From Paracoccaceae bacterium (GTDB taxonomy: Bacteria > Pseudomonadota > Alphaproteobacteria > Rhodobacterales > Rhodobacteraceae): a stretch of 10,297 bases of DNA. The DNA is taken from the NCBI GenBank assembly GCA_007128995.1, contig SKWJ01000036.1, positions 1 to 10,297 of the forward strand, in the 5' to 3' direction. Positions 2,770 through 10,297 of this stretch are shown in pieces. The notes under the pieces are model-generated. The model made no database searches and had not been told where the DNA came from. It saw nothing but the letters and a program-made list of their open reading frames with translations. Both the position numbers and the translations under genes were made by a program. How positions within the stretch are numbered: position 1 is the first letter of the stretch; each line of letters begins with the position of its first letter.

Positions 2770-3690
2770 TCAGAGGGTGATGTCAGTCAGCCGCCCCTGG
2801 GCATCTGCCAGCAACAGACGTGTGACCCCATCAAGGCGGCGCGCAGCCGACCGCAGCGCGGCCTCGGTCATCAGGCAGGCTGCGGTCGAAAACCCGTCAG
2901 CAAGGGCGGCATCCGTTGCAACAACCCCGACGCTTGCCCATTTCGGCAGGCGCTGTTCGGACGGGTCCAGAATATGGCTCGCACTGGCACTTATCTGCAA
3001 GGCGCCGGGGCTTGAGACAGCAAATGCCGCATCTGTCAGCCTGACGCTGGCACGCAGCCCGGCAAGCGGATCAGAAAAGCCAAGGTGCCACGGACCGCCA
3101 ATCGTGGCCGTCTCGCCTATATCGACAAGCACATGCGTCAGTCCTGCCTCGCGCAAGACCTGACGGACAGCATCGGTCGCGGCCCCTTGGGCAATACCAT
3201 TGAAGGTCAGTGCCTGCCCGCTGGCCAGACGCAACCCCCTGCGCCCCGGCCCCGGCAACTGCACGTTCTGCCAGCCTATGGCAGAGCGGGCGGCCTGCAA
3301 GTCAAGGCCGTAAGCATGCGCCAGCCACAGCGACTGGATGGTCGGATCGAACAGCCCTTCTGTTGCCTCGTGCAAGCTGTCGCTGACTTGCACAATGTCA
3401 TGCCAACGCCGGTCAAGATCGGGCAAGCCCCCTTGTGCGTTCAACTGCACAAGCTGGCTATCCGCGCGGAACAGGCTGAACCGCGCCTCGTAGGCTTCGA
3501 TTTCCAGCCGCGCGCGCGCCAGCGCAGGCCGCGTGATCTGCTCTGGTCCATCCAATGTGATTCGGATGTCCGCCCCAAAGGCCACGCCCTGCCACGTCAC
3601 TCTTTGCGGGGTATCCTGAGAACGAGCGGATGCGCCAAGCGCGGCGCAGGCAGAGACAGCCAGAAAGCGGCGGCGGGTCAGCCAGTTCAT
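2770..3690 (-). CDS. apbE: FAD:protein FMN transferase (ApbE/NosX/NirX-like), Tat-exported
   Basis: Protein of 306 residues that in this family uses FAD and Mg2+ to attach FMN to a threonine of a periplasmic partner. The N-terminus has a twin-arginine signal (TRRRFLAVSACAALG, 5-19), so export through Tat is likely, as for NosX. ApbE landmarks are in order: GLFDPTIQSLW (112-122), NGIAQGAATDAV (164-175, family GIAKGxxxD type), LVDIGE (188-193), SHILDPSEQ (238-246) and ATDAALADGFSTA (258-270). The length matches the family. The start codon overlaps the stop of the NosR-like gene by 4 bases (ATGA on the minus strand), with a GAGG ribosome binding site inside that gene. The coupled NosR-like protein carries an FMN-attachment-type motif and is the obvious substrate. 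It is the last gene of the minus-strand operon seen here. Confidence 0.93.
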   Translation of the reverse strand: MNWLTRRRFLAVSACAALGASARSQDTPQRVTWQGVAFGADIRITLDGPEQITRPALARARLEIEAYEARFSLFRADSQLVQLNAQGGLPDLDRRWHDIVQVSDSLHEATEGLFDPTIQSLWLAHAYGLDLQAARSAIGWQNVQLPGPGRRGLRLASGQALTFNGIAQGAATDAVRQVLREAGLTHVLVDIGETATIGGPWHLGFSDPLAGLRASVRLTDAAFAVSSPGALQISASASHILDPSEQRLPKWASVGVVATDAALADGFSTAACLMTEAALRSAARRLDGVTRLLLADAQGRLTDITL

Positions 3691-5825
3691 GCCGGAGCCT
3701 CGTGCACAGGGGGGGCTTGCACCGGGGCGTGCGGCTGGGGCTGTGCGACAGATCCTGCGCGGCGGGTCTTGCGCGTCGCAAGTACAAGCGGGACACAGCG
3801 GTTTTCGTCATCGTGGATAGCCACGCAATCCAGACATTGAAAACACTCGGAATACGCGATCTTGCCAGATTTCTCGATTGCACCGTAGTTGCATTTGACC
3901 CGGCACAACTGACAGGGGCTGCCACATTCCGTACGCCGGGCGATCCAGTCGCGCCCCCGAACAAGCCCGCCAAGCGCCATCACTGCGCCCAACGGACAAA
4001 GATAACGACAGAACCCCTTGAACAGCACCATGCCCAACAGCAACCAGAAGGCGGCATAAGCAACATAATACCATTCCCGCAGGAAAAACACAGTAATGGT
4101 GGTCTTGAATGGCTCGATCTCGGCGGCAGTATCAACATGGTGTGGCGCGAAAACCACCAGACCAACCAACCCCGCCAGAGCAACGTATTTCAATGACTTA
4201 AGCCGCTTGTCCCACCGCGGCGAGGGCTCGATCTGTGGCAGACGCAGCAGGCGCCCCAGATGGTGGGCAAATTCCTGCAACGCGCCGAACGGACACAACC
4301 AGCCGCAGAACAGCCCCCGCCCCCACAGCACGAAGCCAAGGATCGCGGCAGCCCAGACCAGCAACGAGAACGGATCATAGAGCAGGAAAACATAGGACCC
4401 GCCCTCAAGCGCCGTGCGCAAGACACCCAGCGGCGTGACGATGGACAACTGCCCCTGCCCCCAGAAACCGACAAAGCCTGTCATCAGCGCAAGGATCAGC
4501 AGCCGCGCCGGTGTGAAATGCTGCCAGCCCGCGAAGCGGTTCATCCGCGCGCCCAGCGCCCAGACCAGCGCAGCAAGCCCGAGCGCCAGCACGATCAGGT
4601 CGATCTGGCGATTATAGAGCGCTTCCAGCCAGGGGGGCATCGGTGTAATCACACGTTCGCGCAGGAAAAACCGCTCATCGGTCAGGTGTTCAAGTTCCAG
4701 TTCAACGCGGCCAATTTCCGGGGTGATGAACCCATGCTCGCGCACTGCCTCGATGATCAGGGTGAAGGGCTCAGCCGGGTTGAAGCCAAGCCGACGATCC
4801 GTGCGCAGGATCATGGCTGTGCCGTCGGGCGCGCCGGGCGCAAGGTCCACCAGAAAATCCGCGTCGCGCAAAGCAATGGGAAAACCGCCCTGTTCGGCCT
4901 TGATAAGATCAGGCGAGGTGTTGCGCACGAAAGTATCGCTGACCAGCCCATGACGCCCGGCATCGATCAGAAGCAGGAACTCGTCTGTCGGCGCGACCCC
5001 CTGAAACCGCACCATCTGGGCGATGGTTGATGGGTCGAGCGCCGCACGCGCCAATGCGGGCGGTGTCACATCCAGCAACCAGAGGTCCAGAAAGGCCCCC
5101 TCGGGGTCGGCCCGGGATGCAGGGTCAGACTGCGCCCAGCGCGTGCCCTGAAAGGCCGCGTCAATCTCTGCATTGCTGACGCGCAGATGTCCGACCAGCC
5201 CCTGTTCGACCAGATCGCCCCATGTCAGCGTTTCATCATGGTCCGGATCGGGCCGCGCGGCGGGGGCTGCAACGCGGCCCTGCATATGTTCCCGCGCAAC
5301 GGCATGTGCGGCGGCCATGATCGATTCATGTGCAATCCGGACCGATGCCGTGGCCTTGGTGATGCCGTCAAGATGCACAAGCGATGAACCGGCATCTGCA
5401 CCGCCATAGGGTGTCCCGATCGTCATCGGCGACCAGATCGACTTGCCTGCATATTGCTCGAAAAACTCGCGGAAAGGCCCTTCGCCCATGCCCGAAATGA
5501 AGATCGGCTCATTATGGTGCACCACGCGGACTGTCACGAAGGTTCCTTCGCGGTCCAGCACCACCAGCGCGTTGATCGGTGCACCCGCAAATCCCGGAAG
5601 CGCCGCATAGGGCTGCGTGGTGAAGGCAAACCCAGCAGGCGCGCCGCCGGAATTGACAACGCGGTAAAGACCCTTGTCATTCAACGCCTCGCCCAACCCA
5701 AAGGGCGGCGGCACATAGGCTTGCATTTCTTCAGGGGTCAGAATTTGCGCCTGCGCAGGCAGGGCAAGCAGACATGACAGCAGAAGCATGCGAAGAATCG
5801 TGAACATATGAAGCACAATAAGCAT
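3687..5825 (-). CDS. NosR/NirI-like flavo-iron-sulfur membrane protein
   Basis: Membrane redox protein of 712 residues. In order: a secretory signal (cut near AQA-Q, about residue 27); a periplasmic FMN-binding domain (about 75-180) with attachment-type motif DGITKATAS (153-161), predicted flavinylated at Thr159; a long second periplasmic region (190-400); five or six membrane segments from about 408 to 620; paired CGWLCP (507-512) and CRYLCP (606-611) motifs; and a ferredoxin-like end with CGSPCQLCRVKC (634-645) and CFQCLDC (661-667) plus Cys677, enough for two 4Fe-4S clusters. This is the NosR/NirI architecture and usual length. No denitrification gene is nearby; the neighbours are a PQQ alcohol dehydrogenase and ApbE, so a role in electron transfer between membrane and periplasm for that enzyme is inferred. 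Starts at 5825, 5807 and 5789 all lack a good ribosome binding site; an in-frame TAG lies 11 codons upstream of 5825. Confidence 0.88.
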   Translation of the reverse strand: MLIVLHMFTILRMLLLSCLLALPAQAQILTPEEMQAYVPPPFGLGEALNDKGLYRVVNSGGAPAGFAFTTQPYAALPGFAGAPINALVVLDREGTFVTVRVVHHNEPIFISGMGEGPFREFFEQYAGKSIWSPMTIGTPYGGADAGSSLVHLDGITKATASVRIAHESIMAAAHAVAREHMQGRVAAPAARPDPDHDETLTWGDLVEQGLVGHLRVSNAEIDAAFQGTRWAQSDPASRADPEGAFLDLWLLDVTPPALARAALDPSTIAQMVRFQGVAPTDEFLLLIDAGRHGLVSDTFVRNTSPDLIKAEQGGFPIALRDADFLVDLAPGAPDGTAMILRTDRRLGFNPAEPFTLIIEAVREHGFITPEIGRVELELEHLTDERFFLRERVITPMPPWLEALYNRQIDLIVLALGLAALVWALGARMNRFAGWQHFTPARLLILALMTGFVGFWGQGQLSIVTPLGVLRTALEGGSYVFLLYDPFSLLVWAAAILGFVLWGRGLFCGWLCPFGALQEFAHHLGRLLRLPQIEPSPRWDKRLKSLKYVALAGLVGLVVFAPHHVDTAAEIEPFKTTITVFFLREWYYVAYAAFWLLLGMVLFKGFCRYLCPLGAVMALGGLVRGRDWIARRTECGSPCQLCRVKCNYGAIEKSGKIAYSECFQCLDCVAIHDDENRCVPLVLATRKTRRAGSVAQPQPHAPVQAPPVHEAPA

Positions 5826-5836
5826 GGCGCAGCAGA

Positions 5837-5848
5837 TCGCATATGCGA
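5837..5848. promoter_or_regulatory. 12-base perfect palindrome upstream of the NosR-like gene
   Basis: TCGCATATGCGA reads the same on both strands and lies 12-23 bases upstream of the first possible start of the NosR-like gene, where a ribosome binding site would be expected. It could be a repressor operator or a small mRNA structure. No regulator family is recognised, and a chance palindrome is possible. Confidence 0.3.
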
Positions 5849-5875
5849 CTTTCGACTATGGGGCCGACTACAAAT

Positions 5876-5898
5876 GAACCCGGCGCAAGGCCGGGTTC
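5876..5898 (-). terminator. Strong hairpin after the PQQ dehydrogenase gene
   Basis: A perfect 9-base stem (GAACCCGGC at 5876-5884, GCCGGGTTC at 5890-5898) with a 5-base loop starts 27 bases past the quinoprotein stop codon. In the minus direction it is followed by ATTTGT, a short T-rich run. It may terminate most transcripts, or act as a 3' stabiliser that lets the quinoprotein be made in excess of the NosR-like protein and ApbE. Confidence 0.6.
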
Positions 5899-5925
5899 AA
5901 AGCAGTCACATGATCCTGCAGCGCC

Positions 5926-7671
5926 TTAGTCCGCCGAGGCCAGAAGCGCATCCGGGATGCGGAAGGTCCAGACCGACCCGCCCTGATTCAGATAGGCGAC
6001 CTGCTGGGCGACTTCGCCCCCCCAGAGCGGCACAGCCCCGCCCCAGCCAGACACGACCGAAAGCCACTGAACGCCATCTTCATCGTCCCAGGTGATCGGC
6101 TGACCCACGACGCCGGACCCGGTCTGGAACTGCCAGAGCACCTCGCCCGATTCGTCATCGATGGCCTTGATATAGCCTTCGGGTGTCCCGTAGAAAACCA
6201 GCCCGCCCGCGGTTGCCATGGCCGAAGACCAAAGCGGCGCGGCATTGTTGACCTGGAACTTGATCTCCATCGTGTTGGGATCAATCGCCTTCATCGCGCC
6301 GATATGATCCTCAAACAGCGGCTTGATGGTAAAGCCAGCGCCCAGATAGGCCGCGCCCTGCCGATAGGTGATCGGCTCGTTCCAGATATCCATGCCCCAT
6401 TCATTCGCAGGCACATAGAAATAGCCGGTGCGCTGCGAATAGGCCATGTGCTGCCAGTTCTTGCCACCGAGGAAGCCCGGCACGGCCCAGACAACCTCGC
6501 CCCGCTCGCCATCAGCCGATTCGGCCGGATTGCCCGGACGGTTCTCAGGGTTGAAGATCGGACGTCCAGTCTCGTCAATGCCACTGGCCCAGCTGATCTC
6601 TTCCACGAAAGGCATTGCGTCGACAAAGCTACCGTCCTCACGGTTCAGCACATAGAAGAACCCGTTGCGGTCGGCTGTGGCAAGTCGGCCATTTCCTTCG
6701 GCATCGGTGAAGGGGATCACTTCGTTCACACCGTCATAATCCCAGCCTTCCCATGGGGTTGTCTGGAAATACCACTTGATTTCGCCAGTGGACGGGTCCA
6801 GCCCGATGCGCGAGGCGGCATAGAGATTGTCGCCTTCGCGCAGGTGGCTGTTCCAGGGTGCCGGGTTGCCTGTGCCAAAGATCAGTGTGTCTGTTTCGGC
6901 GTCATATGTGCCGCCAAGCCATGGCGCACCGCCGCCAGTCTGCCACATGTCGCCCGGCCACGAAGCATTCATTTCGCCTGTCATGGTGCTTTCTTCACCA
7001 TTCAATTCGCCCATATGACCCTCGATCACCGGACGACGCCAGACCAGTTCGCCATTTTCGGCATCGCGGGCTTCGACAGCGCCTACAATCCCGAATTCGC
7101 CGCCCGAATTTCCGGTGATCACCAGCCCGTTCACGATCAGCGGTGCGGCAGTATAGCTGTAGCCTTCGCGGTAATCGGCAAAGCGGCGATTCCAGACCAC
7201 TGCGCCCGTATGCCGGTTCAGCGCAACAATGCGCGCATCCAGCGTGCCGAAATAGAGATTGTCGCCATAGATCGCCGCGCCCCGGTTGATCACGTCACAG
7301 CAGGGCAGAATCCCTTCCGGCAAGCGCGCATCATGCTGCCAGAGCTTGCGACCTGTCTTGATATCCAGCGCGAAAACGCGGCTGTAAGAGCCGGTGACAT
7401 ACATCACGCCGTCATAAACCAGCGGCTGGCTTTCCTGCCCGCGCTGACGCTCGCCGCCGAAACTGAAGCTCCAGGCCGGGAACAGGTTCTGCACGCTATC
7501 CTTGTTGATCTGGTCCAGCGGGCTGTAGCGCTGCATGTGCCGCCCCATTCCGTTGGTCAAAACACTTGTCGTGACCACGTCGTCATTCGCCAGGTCTTCG
7601 TCCGTGACCTGCCCATGCGCCATCGGCGCAACCATTATGCCAGCACAGACGGCCAATACGAATCTGTTCAT
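5926..7671 (-). CDS. PQQ-dependent alcohol dehydrogenase, lanthanide-type (PedH/ExaA-like)
   Basis: Periplasmic quinoprotein of 581 residues that oxidises alcohols, and often aldehydes, with PQQ. The start at 7671 is chosen because a GGGAGGAAGAGG ribosome binding site precedes it and a signal peptide ([20 protein letters not shown], 1-20) follows; the frame stays open upstream but without such support. The vicinal cysteine pair Cys124-Cys125 in [11 protein letters not shown] is the PQQ-contacting disulfide. Probable metal ligands are Glu192 (GGEFG), Asn269 (GTGNPAPWN) and Asp311, with an extra Asp313 in WDYDGVNE; this second aspartate marks lanthanide-using enzymes, where calcium MxaF has Ala. 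Tryptophan propeller repeats recur (TGAVVW, TGEIKW, SGEVLW). PCCDVINRG favours the ethanol-dehydrogenase-like group over XoxF. There is no C-terminal haem c domain, so it needs an external electron acceptor. The divergent transporter and downstream NosR-like/ApbE genes suggest one pathway. Confidence 0.93.
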
Positions 7672-7806: not shown

Positions 7807-7827
7807 CCGCCAAGTTGGCCTTTGGTC
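7807..7827 (+). repeat. Direct repeat copy B (candidate operator)
   Basis: Second copy, with core TTGGCCTTTGGTC (7815-7827). It differs from copy A at three positions in 21. It lies about 60 bases upstream of the start of the ABC binding-protein gene. An inverted GACCA half-site (7786-7790) lies between the copies. The regulator is not identifiable from sequence. Confidence 0.55.
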
Positions 7828-7886
7828 GAATAGGCTGCCGACTGGGTTGCGCCTAGGCTTGTCCAGACGTTCTGGGAGGACATGAC

Positions 7887-8858
7887 ATGACCCTATTCAC
7901 CACATTGCGCAGGGCGGCCTGCGCGCTTGCCCTGACATCCGCGCCCATTCTGGCAGATCTGCCTGTCCTGACCATTGCCAGTCAGGCCGGCGGAACGGTT
8001 GCCTGGGAACTCGACGTGATCCGTCACCACGGGTTCGACACCGCCAACGGGTTCCAGCTCGAGATTCAGGAGGTCGCAGGCAAGGCCGCCGGGCAGATCG
8101 CCTTTCAGGGCGGTGAGGTTGATATCATCGTCGATGACTGGATCTGGGTGGCGCGGCAGCGCGCCGCAGGACAGGACATCGCCTTCATCCCCTACAGTCG
8201 CGCTGTCGGGGGGGTTATGGTCCGGGCCGACAGCCCCGCGCAAACCTTGCAGGACCTGAGCGGCGCAAAAATCGGGATTGCAGGCGGCCCGAACGACAAA
8301 AGCTGGATCATCCTGCGGGCCTATGCAGCACAGCAAGGCTTTGATCTGCTGGCCGAGACCGAACAGGTCTACGGGGCACCACCGCTGATATTCCAGACCG
8401 CCCGCAGCGGCGATCTGGGTGGCGCGATCAATTTCTGGCATTTCATGGCCAAACAGGAAGCGGCAGGCATGCGCCACCTGATTTCTGTGGCCGATGCCGC
8501 CGCAGCGCTGGGAATGGACCCGGCAATGCCGCTTCTGGGCTATGTCGTGCAATCCGCGCTGGTGGCCGAGCAGCCAGAGCTTGTCACGGCCTTCGCCGCG
8601 GCCTCGCGCGATGCAAAAGCGCAGCTGGCCGGGTCCGAAGATGACTGGGCGCGGTTGCGCCCGATCATGAATGCCGCCGATGATGCAGAGTTTCATGCTC
8701 TTGTCGCAGGCTTCAGAGCCGGCATCCCGGAAGACGGTCCGATCAGCGAAGACTCGGCCCGCGCCATGTTCCGCCTGATGGTGGATCTGGGTGGCGAGGA
8801 TCTTGTCGGCACGGCGACCGAATTGCCAGAGGGCGTTTTCGTGCCGCTCGGATCGTGA
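7887..8858 (+). CDS. ABC transporter substrate-binding protein (SsuA/NMT1/THI5-like)
   Basis: Protein of 323 residues with a standard signal peptide (about 1-23, cut near ILA-D) and no lipobox cysteine, so a free periplasmic binding protein. The mature start [20 protein letters not shown], the [26 protein letters not shown] stretch (about 61-87) and the [15 protein letters not shown] hinge (about 125-139) fit the nitrate/sulfonate/taurine and THI5-like type II fold. The ligand is unknown: this superfamily binds aliphatic sulfonates, nitrate, pyrimidines, aromatic acids and others. The start has a GGGAGGA ribosome binding site 6 bases upstream; an ATG at 7882 is out of frame and stops at once. 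The gene overlaps the permease start by 4 bases (GTGA). Divergence from the PQQ dehydrogenase suggests co-regulation, so an alcohol, its acid product, or a cofactor-related compound are candidate ligands (inference). Confidence 0.85.
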
Positions 8859-9676
8859 CACGCTGGGTGCAGGATACGCTTGGCACGGAAACAGCAGGAC
8901 GAAGCATGCCCGCTGGCATGTTGCGTCCGCTGCCGCTCTGGGCCGTGCGCTGGCTGTCATTGCTGGCGCTCATTGGTTTCTGGTGGGCGCTTGCTCTGGT
9001 CAAGGCCGATCCCATGGTCTTGCCGGGGCCACAGATCGTTCTTCCGCGCCTCTGGGCAGAGGGCGCATCCGGTGCCTTGTGGCAGCATCTGGGAATAACC
9101 TTGTGGCGGGTGATACAGGCCTTTGTCTTTGCCATGTCGCTGGGTCTGGTGCTGGGGGTCCTGATGGGGCTTCTCCCTGCGCTGAACCGATGGCTCGATC
9201 CCTGGCTGGTCTTTTTCCTCAACCTGCCGGCGCTGGTGGTGATCGTGCTGTGTTTTCTGTGGATCGGCTTGAACGAGACGGCAGCCATTGTCGCCGTCGC
9301 CATCAACAAGATCCCGCTGGTGACCGCCATGATGCGCGAGGGGGCGCGCGCATTGTCGGGGCAGCTGGCCGACATGGCGCAGGTGTTCGGCATGTCGGCC
9401 TATGCCCGGCTGCGCCATGTGCTGTTGCCGCAGCTTGCCCCGCATCTGGCATCCACCGCGCGCTCTGGCCTCAGCCTGATCTGGAAGATTGTTCTGGTGG
9501 TCGAGTTTCTGGGCCGTGGACAGGGGGTCGGGTTCAAGATCCACCTGCATTTCCAGATGTTCGATGTCACGATGGTGCTGGTCTACGCGCTCAGCTTCAT
9601 CGGCGTCATGCTCGCCATTGAAACCCTTGTGCTGCAACCTGTCGAAGCCCGCGCACGGCGCTGGAGAGACGCATGA
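8855..9676 (+). CDS. ABC transporter permease (SsuC/TauC-like)
   Basis: Inner-membrane permease of 273 residues with about six membrane segments, the first near 29-49 (LWAVRWLSLLALIGFWWALAL). The EAA-type ATPase-docking loop is visible as ADMAQVFGMSAYARLRHVLL (172-191), followed by the conserved LPQLAPHL. LPGPQIVLPRLW (56-67) after the first helix is typical of the SsuC/TauC class. The GTG start at 8855 overlaps the binding-protein stop by 4 bases; an ATG at 8906 with AGGA at 8896-8899 would give 256 residues and is a realistic alternative, since the first 17 residues look unconserved and hydrophilic. The end overlaps the ATPase gene by 4 bases (ATGA). It forms the membrane channel for the preceding binding protein. 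Confidence 0.9.
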   Translation: MTRWVQDTLGTETAGRSMPAGMLRPLPLWAVRWLSLLALIGFWWALALVKADPMVLPGPQIVLPRLWAEGASGALWQHLGITLWRVIQAFVFAMSLGLVLGVLMGLLPALNRWLDPWLVFFLNLPALVVIVLCFLWIGLNETAAIVAVAINKIPLVTAMMREGARALSGQLADMAQVFGMSAYARLRHVLLPQLAPHLASTARSGLSLIWKIVLVVEFLGRGQGVGFKIHLHFQMFDVTMVLVYALSFIGVMLAIETLVLQPVEARARRWRDA

Positions 9677-10257
9677 GCCTGCAGGTTGCGATCACGCGGA
9701 AATCCTTTGGCCCTGAAACCGTGCTGCGCGATCTGGCCTTCACTGTCGCGCGCGGGGATGTGCTGGCAGTGCTGGGGCCGTCCGGTGTCGGAAAATCAAC
9801 CCTGTTGCGCATCATCGCGGGGCTGGACAGGTCTTTTCAGGGGCAGGTCCGTCGTGACGGACGCCTTGCAATGGTCTTTCAGGAACCCACGCTGCTGCCA
9901 TGGCGCAGTGCTTTGGACAATCTTGTGCTGACAACACGCGTCAGCAGAGCCGCCGCCGAAGCGGCCCTGTCGCGCGTCGGCCTTGGCGGCAAGGGGGCGC
10001 TCTATCCGGGGCAGTTGTCGCTTGGCCAGCAACGCCGCCTGTCACTTGCCCGTGCCTATGCCGCGAAACCCGATATCCTGCTTCTGGACGAACCTTTCGT
10101 GTCGCTTGATGAAACCCTTGTCGCCGATATGCTGGCGCTGACCGAAAGTGTCATCGCCGAACAGCGTCCCGCAACTGTCTTCGTCACCCATTCCAGGGCC
10201 GAGGCAGACCGGCTGGCCACGCGGCAAATGGTCCTTGCCCCGCTGCAGACAGCCTGA
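9673..10257 (+). CDS. Short ABC transporter ATP-binding protein (SsuB/TauB-like)
   Basis: ATPase of only 194 residues that energises the preceding permease. Motifs: Walker A GPSGVGKST (35-43), Q-loop Gln70 in MVFQEPTLLPW, Walker B DILLLDE (134-140), D-loop SLDE (144-147) and switch His173 in VTHSRAEADRL. PTLLPW after the Q-loop is characteristic of the nitrate/sulfonate/taurine ATPases. The signature reads LSLGQ (115-119), with Leu at the first Gly of LSGGQ. The chain is about 50-60 residues shorter than typical SsuB/TauB because the loop after the Walker A helix is short and the protein ends soon after the H-loop. All catalytic motifs are present, so it is probably functional. The ATGA overlap with the permease and GGAGAG at 9663-9668 support the start. 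Confidence 0.9.
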   Translation: MSLQVAITRKSFGPETVLRDLAFTVARGDVLAVLGPSGVGKSTLLRIIAGLDRSFQGQVRRDGRLAMVFQEPTLLPWRSALDNLVLTTRVSRAAAEAALSRVGLGGKGALYPGQLSLGQQRRLSLARAYAAKPDILLLDEPFVSLDETLVADMLALTESVIAEQRPATVFVTHSRAEADRLATRQMVLAPLQTA

Positions 10258-10281: not shown

Positions 10282-10297
10282 AGCGCCCCCGAAGGGC

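Follow-up and report, generated by a model that had tools for sequence, protein, structure and literature searches.

The window is an entire contig of 10.3 kb that ends at position 10297. Three genes were called on its minus strand: apbE, encoding an FAD:protein FMN transferase (2770..3690; Pfam ApbE, E 2.1e-37), a gene for a NosR-like transmembrane FMN/4Fe-4S protein of 712 aa (3687..5825; NCBIfam NosR, E 1e-122; Fer4_5), and a gene for a PQQ-dependent alcohol dehydrogenase (ADH) of the ExaF/PedH type with 581 aa (5926..7671; TIGR03075, E 1.8e-221, above the cut-off). The coordinates and names given for these genes in the initial annotation are correct, as is the 4-base overlap of apbE with the NosR-like gene. 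An ABC transporter is encoded on the plus strand, divergently from the ADH gene. It consists of an NMT1/SsuA-like substrate-binding protein belonging to the conserved cluster (7887..8858; Pfam NMT1), a permease (8855..9676; Pfam BPD_transp_1) and an ATPase (9673..10257; profile search). Gene-neighbour counts, here and below, were obtained with the author's codon-usage gene caller and are lower bounds. The substrate-binding gene is found at the equivalent position in loci L118, L120-L122 and L127, and the permease in 36/80 relatives' loci; in many relatives the permease gene lies divergent from the NosR-like gene without the rest of the transporter. A terminator- or attenuator-like hairpin between the ADH and NosR-like genes (5875..5899, minus strand) is weak on its own, six such sites being found vs 4.8 expected in shuffles. 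A G+C-rich palindrome occupies the same position in 8/9 close relatives' loci; in the ninth (L122) the intergenic stretch is nearly absent in the gene call.

The open frame of the ADH gene extends to 7791, and the annotated start at 7671 is preferable because a Shine-Dalgarno-like GGGAGGAAGAGG directly precedes the ATG. No haem family matched the enzyme in a Pfam search, in keeping with its earlier description as a soluble quinoprotein without a haem domain. The closest solved structures, described as 'quinoprotein ethanol dehydrogenase', are 6zcv (E 1.8e-237), which is presumably PedH, and 6zcw. A DxD motif (DYD) of the lanthanide-type metal site appears within GWDYDGVNE (6733..6741, minus strand), and alignment with 6zcv identifies a vicinal pair of cysteines (CC) close to the active site (7297..7302, minus strand). 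DxD is present in 40 of the 43 called ADHs of the relatives, the window counted and the other three being incomplete, and DxS is found in ADH paralogues. The CC pair also precedes each genuine ADH metal motif examined in the DxD/DxS comparison. The DxD motif and the nearness to PedH place the ADH of the window among the predicted lanthanide-type PQQ-ADHs (ExaF/PedH).

The NosR-like protein scores 410.7 bits against NCBIfam NosR (NF046105), below the curated cut-off of 1000 and hence outside that family, and matches Fer4_5 (PF12801) with E 3.3e-13. Hydropathy and charge predict a signal peptide, a periplasmic region at residues 21-407, five membrane helices and a cytosolic Fe-S tail. By analogy with NosR and NqrC, T159 (codon at 5349..5351, minus strand) in the aligned motif DGITKATAS is the predicted FMN attachment site. 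This motif is found in 155/159 called NosR-like proteins, and the remaining four have a variant that retains KATAS; the threonine is unvaried across the PQQ-type, NosR, NirI and orphan rows of the alignment. Two CX3CP motifs, C507-C511 (4293..4307, minus strand) and C606-C610 (3996..4010, minus strand), are likewise unvaried between groups. The cysteines of C634-C677 (3795..3926, minus strand) are predicted from the alignment to hold two 4Fe-4S clusters on the cytosolic side, and this C-terminal pattern appears in 157/159 called proteins. All of the NosR cofactor residues are retained as invariant columns. ApbE is predicted to flavinylate the NosR-like protein; apbE was called as a gene in 53/80 relatives' loci, and a tblastn match of at least 60 bits was obtained in 72/80. 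The NosR architecture, covalent-FMN motif, ApbE partner and lanthanide-type quinoprotein of the initial annotation are all borne out.

Co-occurrence was surveyed in 394 genomes of the family Rhodobacteraceae, nearly one per genus. Both the NosR-like protein and the ADH were found in 77 genomes, the NosR-like protein only in 4, the ADH only in 2 and neither in 311; the ADH is present in 77/81 genomes of the NosR-like clade. The two genes are separated by at most 25 kb in 55/77 genomes, and in 53 of those 55 they are on the same strand. This survey supports the suggested linkage of NosR-like proteins with PQQ dehydrogenases, and the three-gene cluster is real, but the close ADH-NosR spacing seen in the window is exceptional, with the genes within 1 kb of each other in 2/77 genomes. 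Two genomes with only DxS ADHs (G002 and G367) are without the NosR-like clade. DxD ADHs were detected in 4/4 tested of the 6 genomes with orphan NosR-like genes. Five class-level genomes have a DxD ADH and gave no NosR-like match at E 1e-110, a threshold that leaves room for weaker NosR homologues; lanthanide ADHs therefore appear to be generally independent of NosR-like proteins, and a requirement for one by every lanthanide ADH was rejected. Those Rhodobacteraceae that may use rare earths to oxidise alcohols are possibly dependent on NosR-like/ApbE.

A regulatory box, GTCGCATATGC, is located upstream of the NosR-like gene (5839..5849, minus strand). This match from the motif scan is circular because the motif seed was taken from there and from relatives. 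The same box appears in the divergent region between the ADH and ABC-transporter genes (7825..7835, plus strand; score 11.7, threshold 9.9). Half of the NosR loci served to train the motif, which was then scored on held-out genes; matches were obtained for 25/38 held-out NosR, 34/39 pedF, 6/10 ADH and 5/8 pqqB genes vs 13/428 other genes. The NosR-like operon is probably co-regulated with pedF, ADH and pqqB.

The initial annotation reported no cytochrome c and took this as an argument for a distinct electron route. The statement is true within the contig, where the cytochrome gene is missing because the contig ends at 10297, and the argument built on it is an artefact of that edge. Cytochrome c550 PedF was detected in 77/80 clade genomes and in 0/27 family genomes with neither NosR-like protein nor ADH. 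It is encoded close to the ADH in 7/10 long loci from the closest relatives. In L115 and L118-L121 pedF is found about 1.0-2.2 kb beyond the ABC ATPase gene, and in L113 it is inside a possible operon, cytC-SBP-ADH-NosR-ApbE. Genes for PedF and a PedG-like protein are expected past the ABC ATPase gene of the window, beyond the contig end. In 80 PedF proteins of the clade loci, 152-178 residues follow CxxCH vs 71-77 in six PedF proteins of other lineages. This C-terminal extension was rejected as a docking part for the NosR-like protein: in G566 the NosR-like protein occurs and the extension is missing, and in G002 the extension occurs and a clade NosR-like protein is missing.

In the relevant sections of Meheust 2021 (eLife, PMC8238504), flavinylated NapH-like proteins were described together with an ethanol oxidase in 172 genomes and were proposed to take over the role of cytochrome c. 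The linkage of NosR-like protein and quinoprotein, and an inward electron route, are thus already published and are not new; the present data add the co-inheritance counts, the upstream box and the finding that NosR-like/ApbE and SoxYZ/SoxH usually alternate. As in the NapH-like/ExaA system of those sections, a PF12801 (Fer4_5) membrane protein with an N-terminal FMN site is clustered here with ApbE and a PQQ alcohol dehydrogenase. The locus differs in its DxD-type dehydrogenase and in the coexistence of PedF (77/80), whereas in the published model the flavoprotein stands in the position that cytochrome c has in other microbes. In PMC8238504, the Figure 5A legend lists 'Rhiobacillus thiooxidans', which may be Roseinatronobacter thiooxidans, L115 here. 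The NosR-like system is an addition beside the cytochrome, which contradicts replacement, and the hypothesis to test changes from a replacement route to a probably co-regulated addition.

It is tentatively proposed, with confidence a little short of even, that NosR-like/ApbE is a dedicated accessory module of DxD ADHs that maintains the quinoprotein reductively, with PedF receiving the electrons of catalysis. Judging from the motif, ApbE would attach FMN at T159 of the periplasmic domain, and conservation and predicted topology suggest that the five helices and two CX3CP motifs join the cytosolic 4Fe-4S clusters to this FMN. The catalytic electrons of alcohol oxidation would pass to PedF as in Pseudomonas, given the co-occurrence and the known function of PedF. 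The NosR-like protein would most likely work outwards, as proposed for NosR, with the periplasmic FMN receiving electrons from quinol or from a donor in the cytosol. The reduced FMN may then serve in the activation, repair or continued activity of the quinoprotein or of its vicinal-disulfide/PQQ site.

An unlikely reading, though a published one (PMC8238504, in the sections cited), has the electrons move inward: FMN would accept them from the quinoprotein or PedF and pass them through Fe-S to the quinone pool, as an energy-conserving branch beside the cytochrome. The tight co-inheritance and co-regulation of the NosR-like protein with the dehydrogenase are also in its favour. A flavin, moreover, can accept two electrons from PQQH2. 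Given the potential of PQQ, however, electron transfer from PQQH2 to a flavin near -205 mV would be uphill. In the portions of PMC7660919 and PMC5928378 bearing on this point, -205 mV is the potential of free FMN, though flavoproteins span +153 to -495 mV. The same portions propose NosR as electron donor to N2O reductase and have NapH participate in passing electrons to periplasmic nitrate reductase, both acting towards periplasmic reductases. PedF is so widespread in the clade genomes that there is no cytochrome in need of replacement.

Reduction of another partner of the alcohol pathway instead of the dehydrogenase, such as metal or PQQ uptake, cytochrome maturation or an aldehyde-oxidising Mo-hydroxylase, is improbable. 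ABC transporters are part of the cluster and a CoxL-like Mo-hydroxylase was found in 29/80 loci, but this frequency is to be set against those of the dehydrogenase (77/81) and PedF (77/80) in the genomes.

Strict replacement of cytochrome c, with the NosR-like protein as the sole electron acceptor of the dehydrogenase, is very improbable and is largely refuted by the PedF counts. It would agree with the 10.3-kb window without a cytochrome gene, with the failure to find PedF in the incomplete genome of the window and, among the 80 clade genomes searched, in G020, G098 and G198, and with a Variovorax plasmid locus in which the piece examined has the NosR-like gene and a HiPIP gene and lacks pedF. 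The genome of the window is 79% complete, however, and pedF is commonly near the ADH in the long loci.

In phylogenetic trees the NosR-like proteins form a separate clade with support of 100/100, distinct from 17 NosR and 4 NirI-type proteins taken as references from nos- or nir-bearing loci. NosR, linked to nosZ, has the FMN threonine, both CX3CP motifs, both 4Fe-4S motifs and an ApbE partner, as does the NosR-like protein, and NirI of nir/nor loci shares the architecture and cofactor residues. The NosR-like protein nevertheless has about 30% identity to NosR/NirI. No match to nosZ, nosD, nirS, nirF or norB was obtained in 160 clade loci, whereas nosZ was found in 17/17 NosR reference loci; this agrees with the earlier claim of a functional link unrelated to N2O or nitrite. 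Database labels like 'NosR/NirI family transcriptional regulator' notwithstanding, the separate clade, the low identity, the retained cofactor residues and the empty loci make a leftover or true denitrification NosR/NirI, or a regulator, located here by chance extremely improbable. Some proteins labelled 'NosR', or labelled as a 'regulator of nitric oxide reductase', in databases may thus be unconnected with N2O.

The ped cluster of Pseudomonas putida (PedH/PedE, PedF, PP_2666/PP_2677/PP_2678; PMC12997753) shares with the relatives a vicinal-cysteine quinoprotein, PedF c550 and a PedG-like protein; the relatives' loci also contain TIGR03861/03863/03864/03866 genes. The P. putida cluster differs in its SoxYZ-like, SoxH-like and rhodanese genes, and NosR and ApbE are absent from the main text of PMC12997753. 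At most loci NosR-like/ApbE would occupy the place of this module in related systems. Counted at locus pieces, not whole genomes, 51 DxD ADH loci have the NosR-like gene without SoxYZ/SoxH, 7 have SoxYZ/SoxH without the NosR-like gene and 1 has both; the 52 NosR-positive loci include six pairs of identical ADH (46 distinct) and several close relatives, and 3 further rows without a readable metal motif were excluded. Many pieces, anchored on the NosR-like gene, stop short of the ADH. Another 19 DxD rows are without either module in the piece: for 16 of them the genome has a NosR-like gene elsewhere, some being represented by two overlapping loci, and the other three are L204, L205 and L260. A SoxH-like match in L151 (92 bits, 31%, without SoxYZ) was not counted as a relay pair, and cluster family f11 was rejected as the CXXCW protein, the motif being found in 0/46.

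Both modules lie beside each other in 5/80 NosR-like loci (L046, L064, L086, L090 and L105; SoxYZ, SoxH, CXXCW), and L134, one of 80 in a second NosR-like locus set, has the NosR-like gene plus a SoxYZ fragment truncated where the contig ends. Strict exclusion was therefore rejected, and the two modules may be complementary. A wider reading is possible, if doubtful: the unrelated NosR-like/ApbE (flavin, Fe-S) and SoxYZ-like/SoxH-like/rhodanese (thiol, zinc) modules would share one function, namely redox maintenance of vicinal-disulfide PQQ dehydrogenases, and this NosR-like branch, including the 'orphan' copies in other proteobacterial classes, would be quinoprotein reductases, not denitrification proteins. 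Should SoxYZ/SoxH, the 'quinoprotein relay', prove to alternate with NosR-like/ApbE, this unexplained module would gain a testable role. Neither module was found within the piece in 3/7 DxS rows, or in the locus pieces examined from Sinorhizobium fredii NGR234. Among the seven DxS rows, L208 and L263 are one locus, and in L196 a single Sox pair is flanked by ADHs of both types. Gemmobacter fulvus has the DxD ADH and NosR-like gene on one plasmid and the DxS ADH and SoxYZ/SoxH on another, with PedF on each.

The NosR-like protein (3687–5825) and ApbE (2770–3690), encoded on the minus strand with a 4-base overlap of their genes, are an accessory of DxD PQQ dehydrogenases and are used together with cytochrome c550 PedF (TIGR04494). 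The window dehydrogenase (5926–7671, minus strand) has two vicinal cysteines and a DxD metal motif; among solved structures, 6zcv and 6zcw are closest to it. Hydropathy predicts residues 21–407 of the NosR-like protein outside, followed by five helices and an Fe–S tail inside. Its cofactor residues are invariant (at least 90% per group) among the PQQ-type, NosR, NirI and orphan proteins that were compared: the threonine for FMN, the two CX3CP motifs and the Fe–S cysteines.

The clade of NosR-like proteins (at least 50% identity) was identified in 81 of 394 family genomes (393 genera), well apart from matches near 30%. Twenty loci of the latter kind were fetched; nosZ and nosD are present in 17, and nirS-like, nirF-like and norB-like genes in the remaining three. 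Locus L211 has nosZ plus a nirS-like match. The initial annotation had named nosZ or nirS beside related loci with no PQQ gene as evidence against its reading; nosZ, nosD, nirS-like, nirF-like and norB-like genes have no match in the 160 clade loci examined. In a tree of the kind it had proposed, the PQQ-type proteins (31 rows) are separate from NosR (17) and NirI-type (4) proteins, with support of 100/100, 95/98 and 100/100, respectively, from a bootstrap not fully settled and with long branches present.

An orthologue of the window dehydrogenase is present in 79 of the 394 family genomes. Both genes occur in 77, the NosR-like gene alone in 4 (G020, G122, G191 and G198), the dehydrogenase alone in 2 (G147 and G216) and neither in 311 (Fisher p = 2.9e-74, uncorrected for relatedness). 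G179, which belongs to the same genus as the window, has neither. In 62 of the 77 genomes with both, the pair is encoded on one contig; the distance is at most 25 kb in 55 genomes and at most 1 kb in 2. The proposed linkage is conserved, and it was already known, since Meheust et al. 2021 (PMC8238504) had described linkage of the flavoprotein module with PQQ dehydrogenase. For the co-occurrence counts, the shared box and the alternation described below, no report was recognized among the matches listed from the open-access literature.

The NosR-like/ApbE pair belongs to a large alcohol-catabolism cluster which, across 80 loci from relatives, has genes for PedG-like (52), TIGR03863 (48), PedF (40) and TIGR03866 (32) proteins, CoxL-like Mo-hydroxylase (29), the dehydrogenase (13) and PQQ synthesis (pqq, 7–9). 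A whole-genome search detected PedF in 77 of the 80 clade genomes (73 of 74 when limited to good ones), in 10 of 39 other genomes, all of which encode a PQQ dehydrogenase, and in none of 27 family genomes with neither clade nor dehydrogenase. It was not found in the source genome, which is incomplete (79% complete, 545 contigs) and whose contig C258 is identical in extent to the window. Ten of the 13 closest named loci are long enough for the PedF check, and PedF adjoins the PedG-like gene in seven; it was not seen within the pieces examined of L117, L122 and L123. Where the order is kept, PedF lies ∼1.0–2.2 kb beyond the ABC ATPase, so the window most likely has no cytochrome because the contig ends there. 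The absence of cytochrome c, taken earlier as the sign of a distinct electron route, does not hold for these relatives. The single-strand order in L113 is cytC, SBP, ADH, NosR and ApbE.

The window's ABC transporter (7887–10257, plus strand) is divergent from the dehydrogenase. The genes at 1–2675, for another ABC transporter and for an MGH1-like protein resembling glucosylglycerate hydrolase, are not among the frequent families adjoining the cluster. A split transporter occurs in L033, L142, L151 and other loci, with a lone permease divergent from the NosR-like gene and the binding protein and ATPase elsewhere in the cluster. A CoxL/M/S/G-like Mo-hydroxylase lies between NosR/ApbE and PedF in 29 of 80 loci (5788–8707 in L153), and an aldehyde dehydrogenase adjoins the NosR-like gene in Salipiger loci. 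At the C terminus, PedF of L149 (18497–19177) and of other clade loci is longer by ∼80 residues, with EALTIGLSAA close to the end; PedF proteins from six other genomes do not have this extension. The cluster also encodes family f11 (L149, 21440–21934; L039, L042, L043), a conserved secreted protein of ∼150 residues; a scan of one member gave no Pfam or NCBIfam match.

The NosR-like gene usually alternates with SoxYZ-like (TIGR04557) and SoxH-like (TIGR04558) genes. In related DxD loci without NosR-like genes (G443, G560, G656, G737 and Azospirillum thermophilum), these two are flanked by the PedG-like gene on one side and the dehydrogenase on the other; in Sphingobium indicum they are a few kb away; the G629 contig ends after its SoxYZ-like gene. 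Among DxD loci with a full dehydrogenase, 51 have NosR-like only, 7 Sox only, 1 both and 19 neither in the piece; the counts for DxS loci are NosR-like 0, Sox 4 and neither 3. The locus with both is L134, which starts inside a SoxYZ-like gene (1–246, cut by the contig end) adjoining the NosR-like gene. Annotated plasmids of Sulfitobacter, Phaeobacter, Paracoccus aestuarii, Shinella and Thioclava carry NosR-like, ApbE, PedF and dehydrogenase genes, with Sox genes absent from the examined stretch. Gemmobacter fulvus has two plasmids, one with DxD and NosR-like genes and the other with DxS and SoxYZ/SoxH. Plasmid records matched NosR-like (82 at E 1e-60, some ordinary NosR), SoxH-like (23) and SoxYZ-like (21) proteins, with no shared accession among the matches listed. 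Against alternation, however, SoxYZ-like, SoxH-like and CXXCW genes directly adjoin NosR-like/ApbE in 5 of 80 loci (L046, L064, L086, L090 and L105), and S. fredii NGR234 has neither module in the pieces examined.

Outside the family, the NosR-like protein (E 1e-110) was found in 4 of 385 class genomes, source genome included, all with the dehydrogenase; 5 of the 9 class genomes with the dehydrogenase have no NosR-like match at that threshold. With the G566 protein as query, 53 of 317 phylum genomes matched. Twenty of these loci were fetched: 12 have nosZ, 6 neither gene, and 2 a run with the dehydrogenase, namely G810 (with ApbE) and G1025 (NosR-like directly downstream). The six orphans (L230–L235, other proteobacteria) have no nosZ, nirS or PQQ gene nearby. 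In a quick tree they and G1025 join the PQQ-type clade, not NosR, and all four orphan genomes searched encode a DxD dehydrogenase elsewhere (59–63% identity). Plasmids of Aquabacterium, Variovorax and Methylorubrum extorquens carry NosR-like and ApbE genes inside the dehydrogenase cluster. Directly behind the dehydrogenase on a Variovorax plasmid (L276, 15801–16142; no pedF in the piece) is a gene for a high-potential iron–sulfur protein, possibly another electron acceptor.

The neighboring ApbE would flavinylate the NosR-like protein, which may deliver electrons outward for upkeep of the quinoprotein. The inward electron route published by Meheust et al. is the somewhat less probable direction. 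In Pseudomonas putida, PedF is described as essential for PedE/PedH activity (PMC12997753). NosR has been proposed to donate electrons to N2O reductase, and NapH participates in passing electrons to the periplasmic nitrate reductase (PMC7660919, PMC5928378). By analogy with these systems, outward delivery is tentatively favored.

Half of the regions upstream of NosR-like genes served to refine a box near CCAAGGTCGCATA. This box was found upstream of 25/38 held-out NosR-like, 34/39 pedF, 36/48 TIGR03863, 29/35 divergent permease, 18/30 CoxG, 6/10 ADH, 5/8 pqqB and 2/4 SoxYZ genes, counts that are partly non-independent since intergenic regions are common to pedF/TIGR03863 and to permease/NosR. 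The background in the same loci is 13/428 other genes (3/201 first genes), and the box occurs at 0/7 LuxR, 1/4 HK and 1/3 FIST genes. Window sites appear at 5839–5849 and 7825–7835; its three short-pattern matches were equaled in 10 of 200 shuffles. A G+C-rich hairpin 3′ of the dehydrogenase (5875–5899) is kept in eight of nine close relatives' loci with bases changed on both arms, and is possibly an attenuator lowering NosR/ApbE expression.
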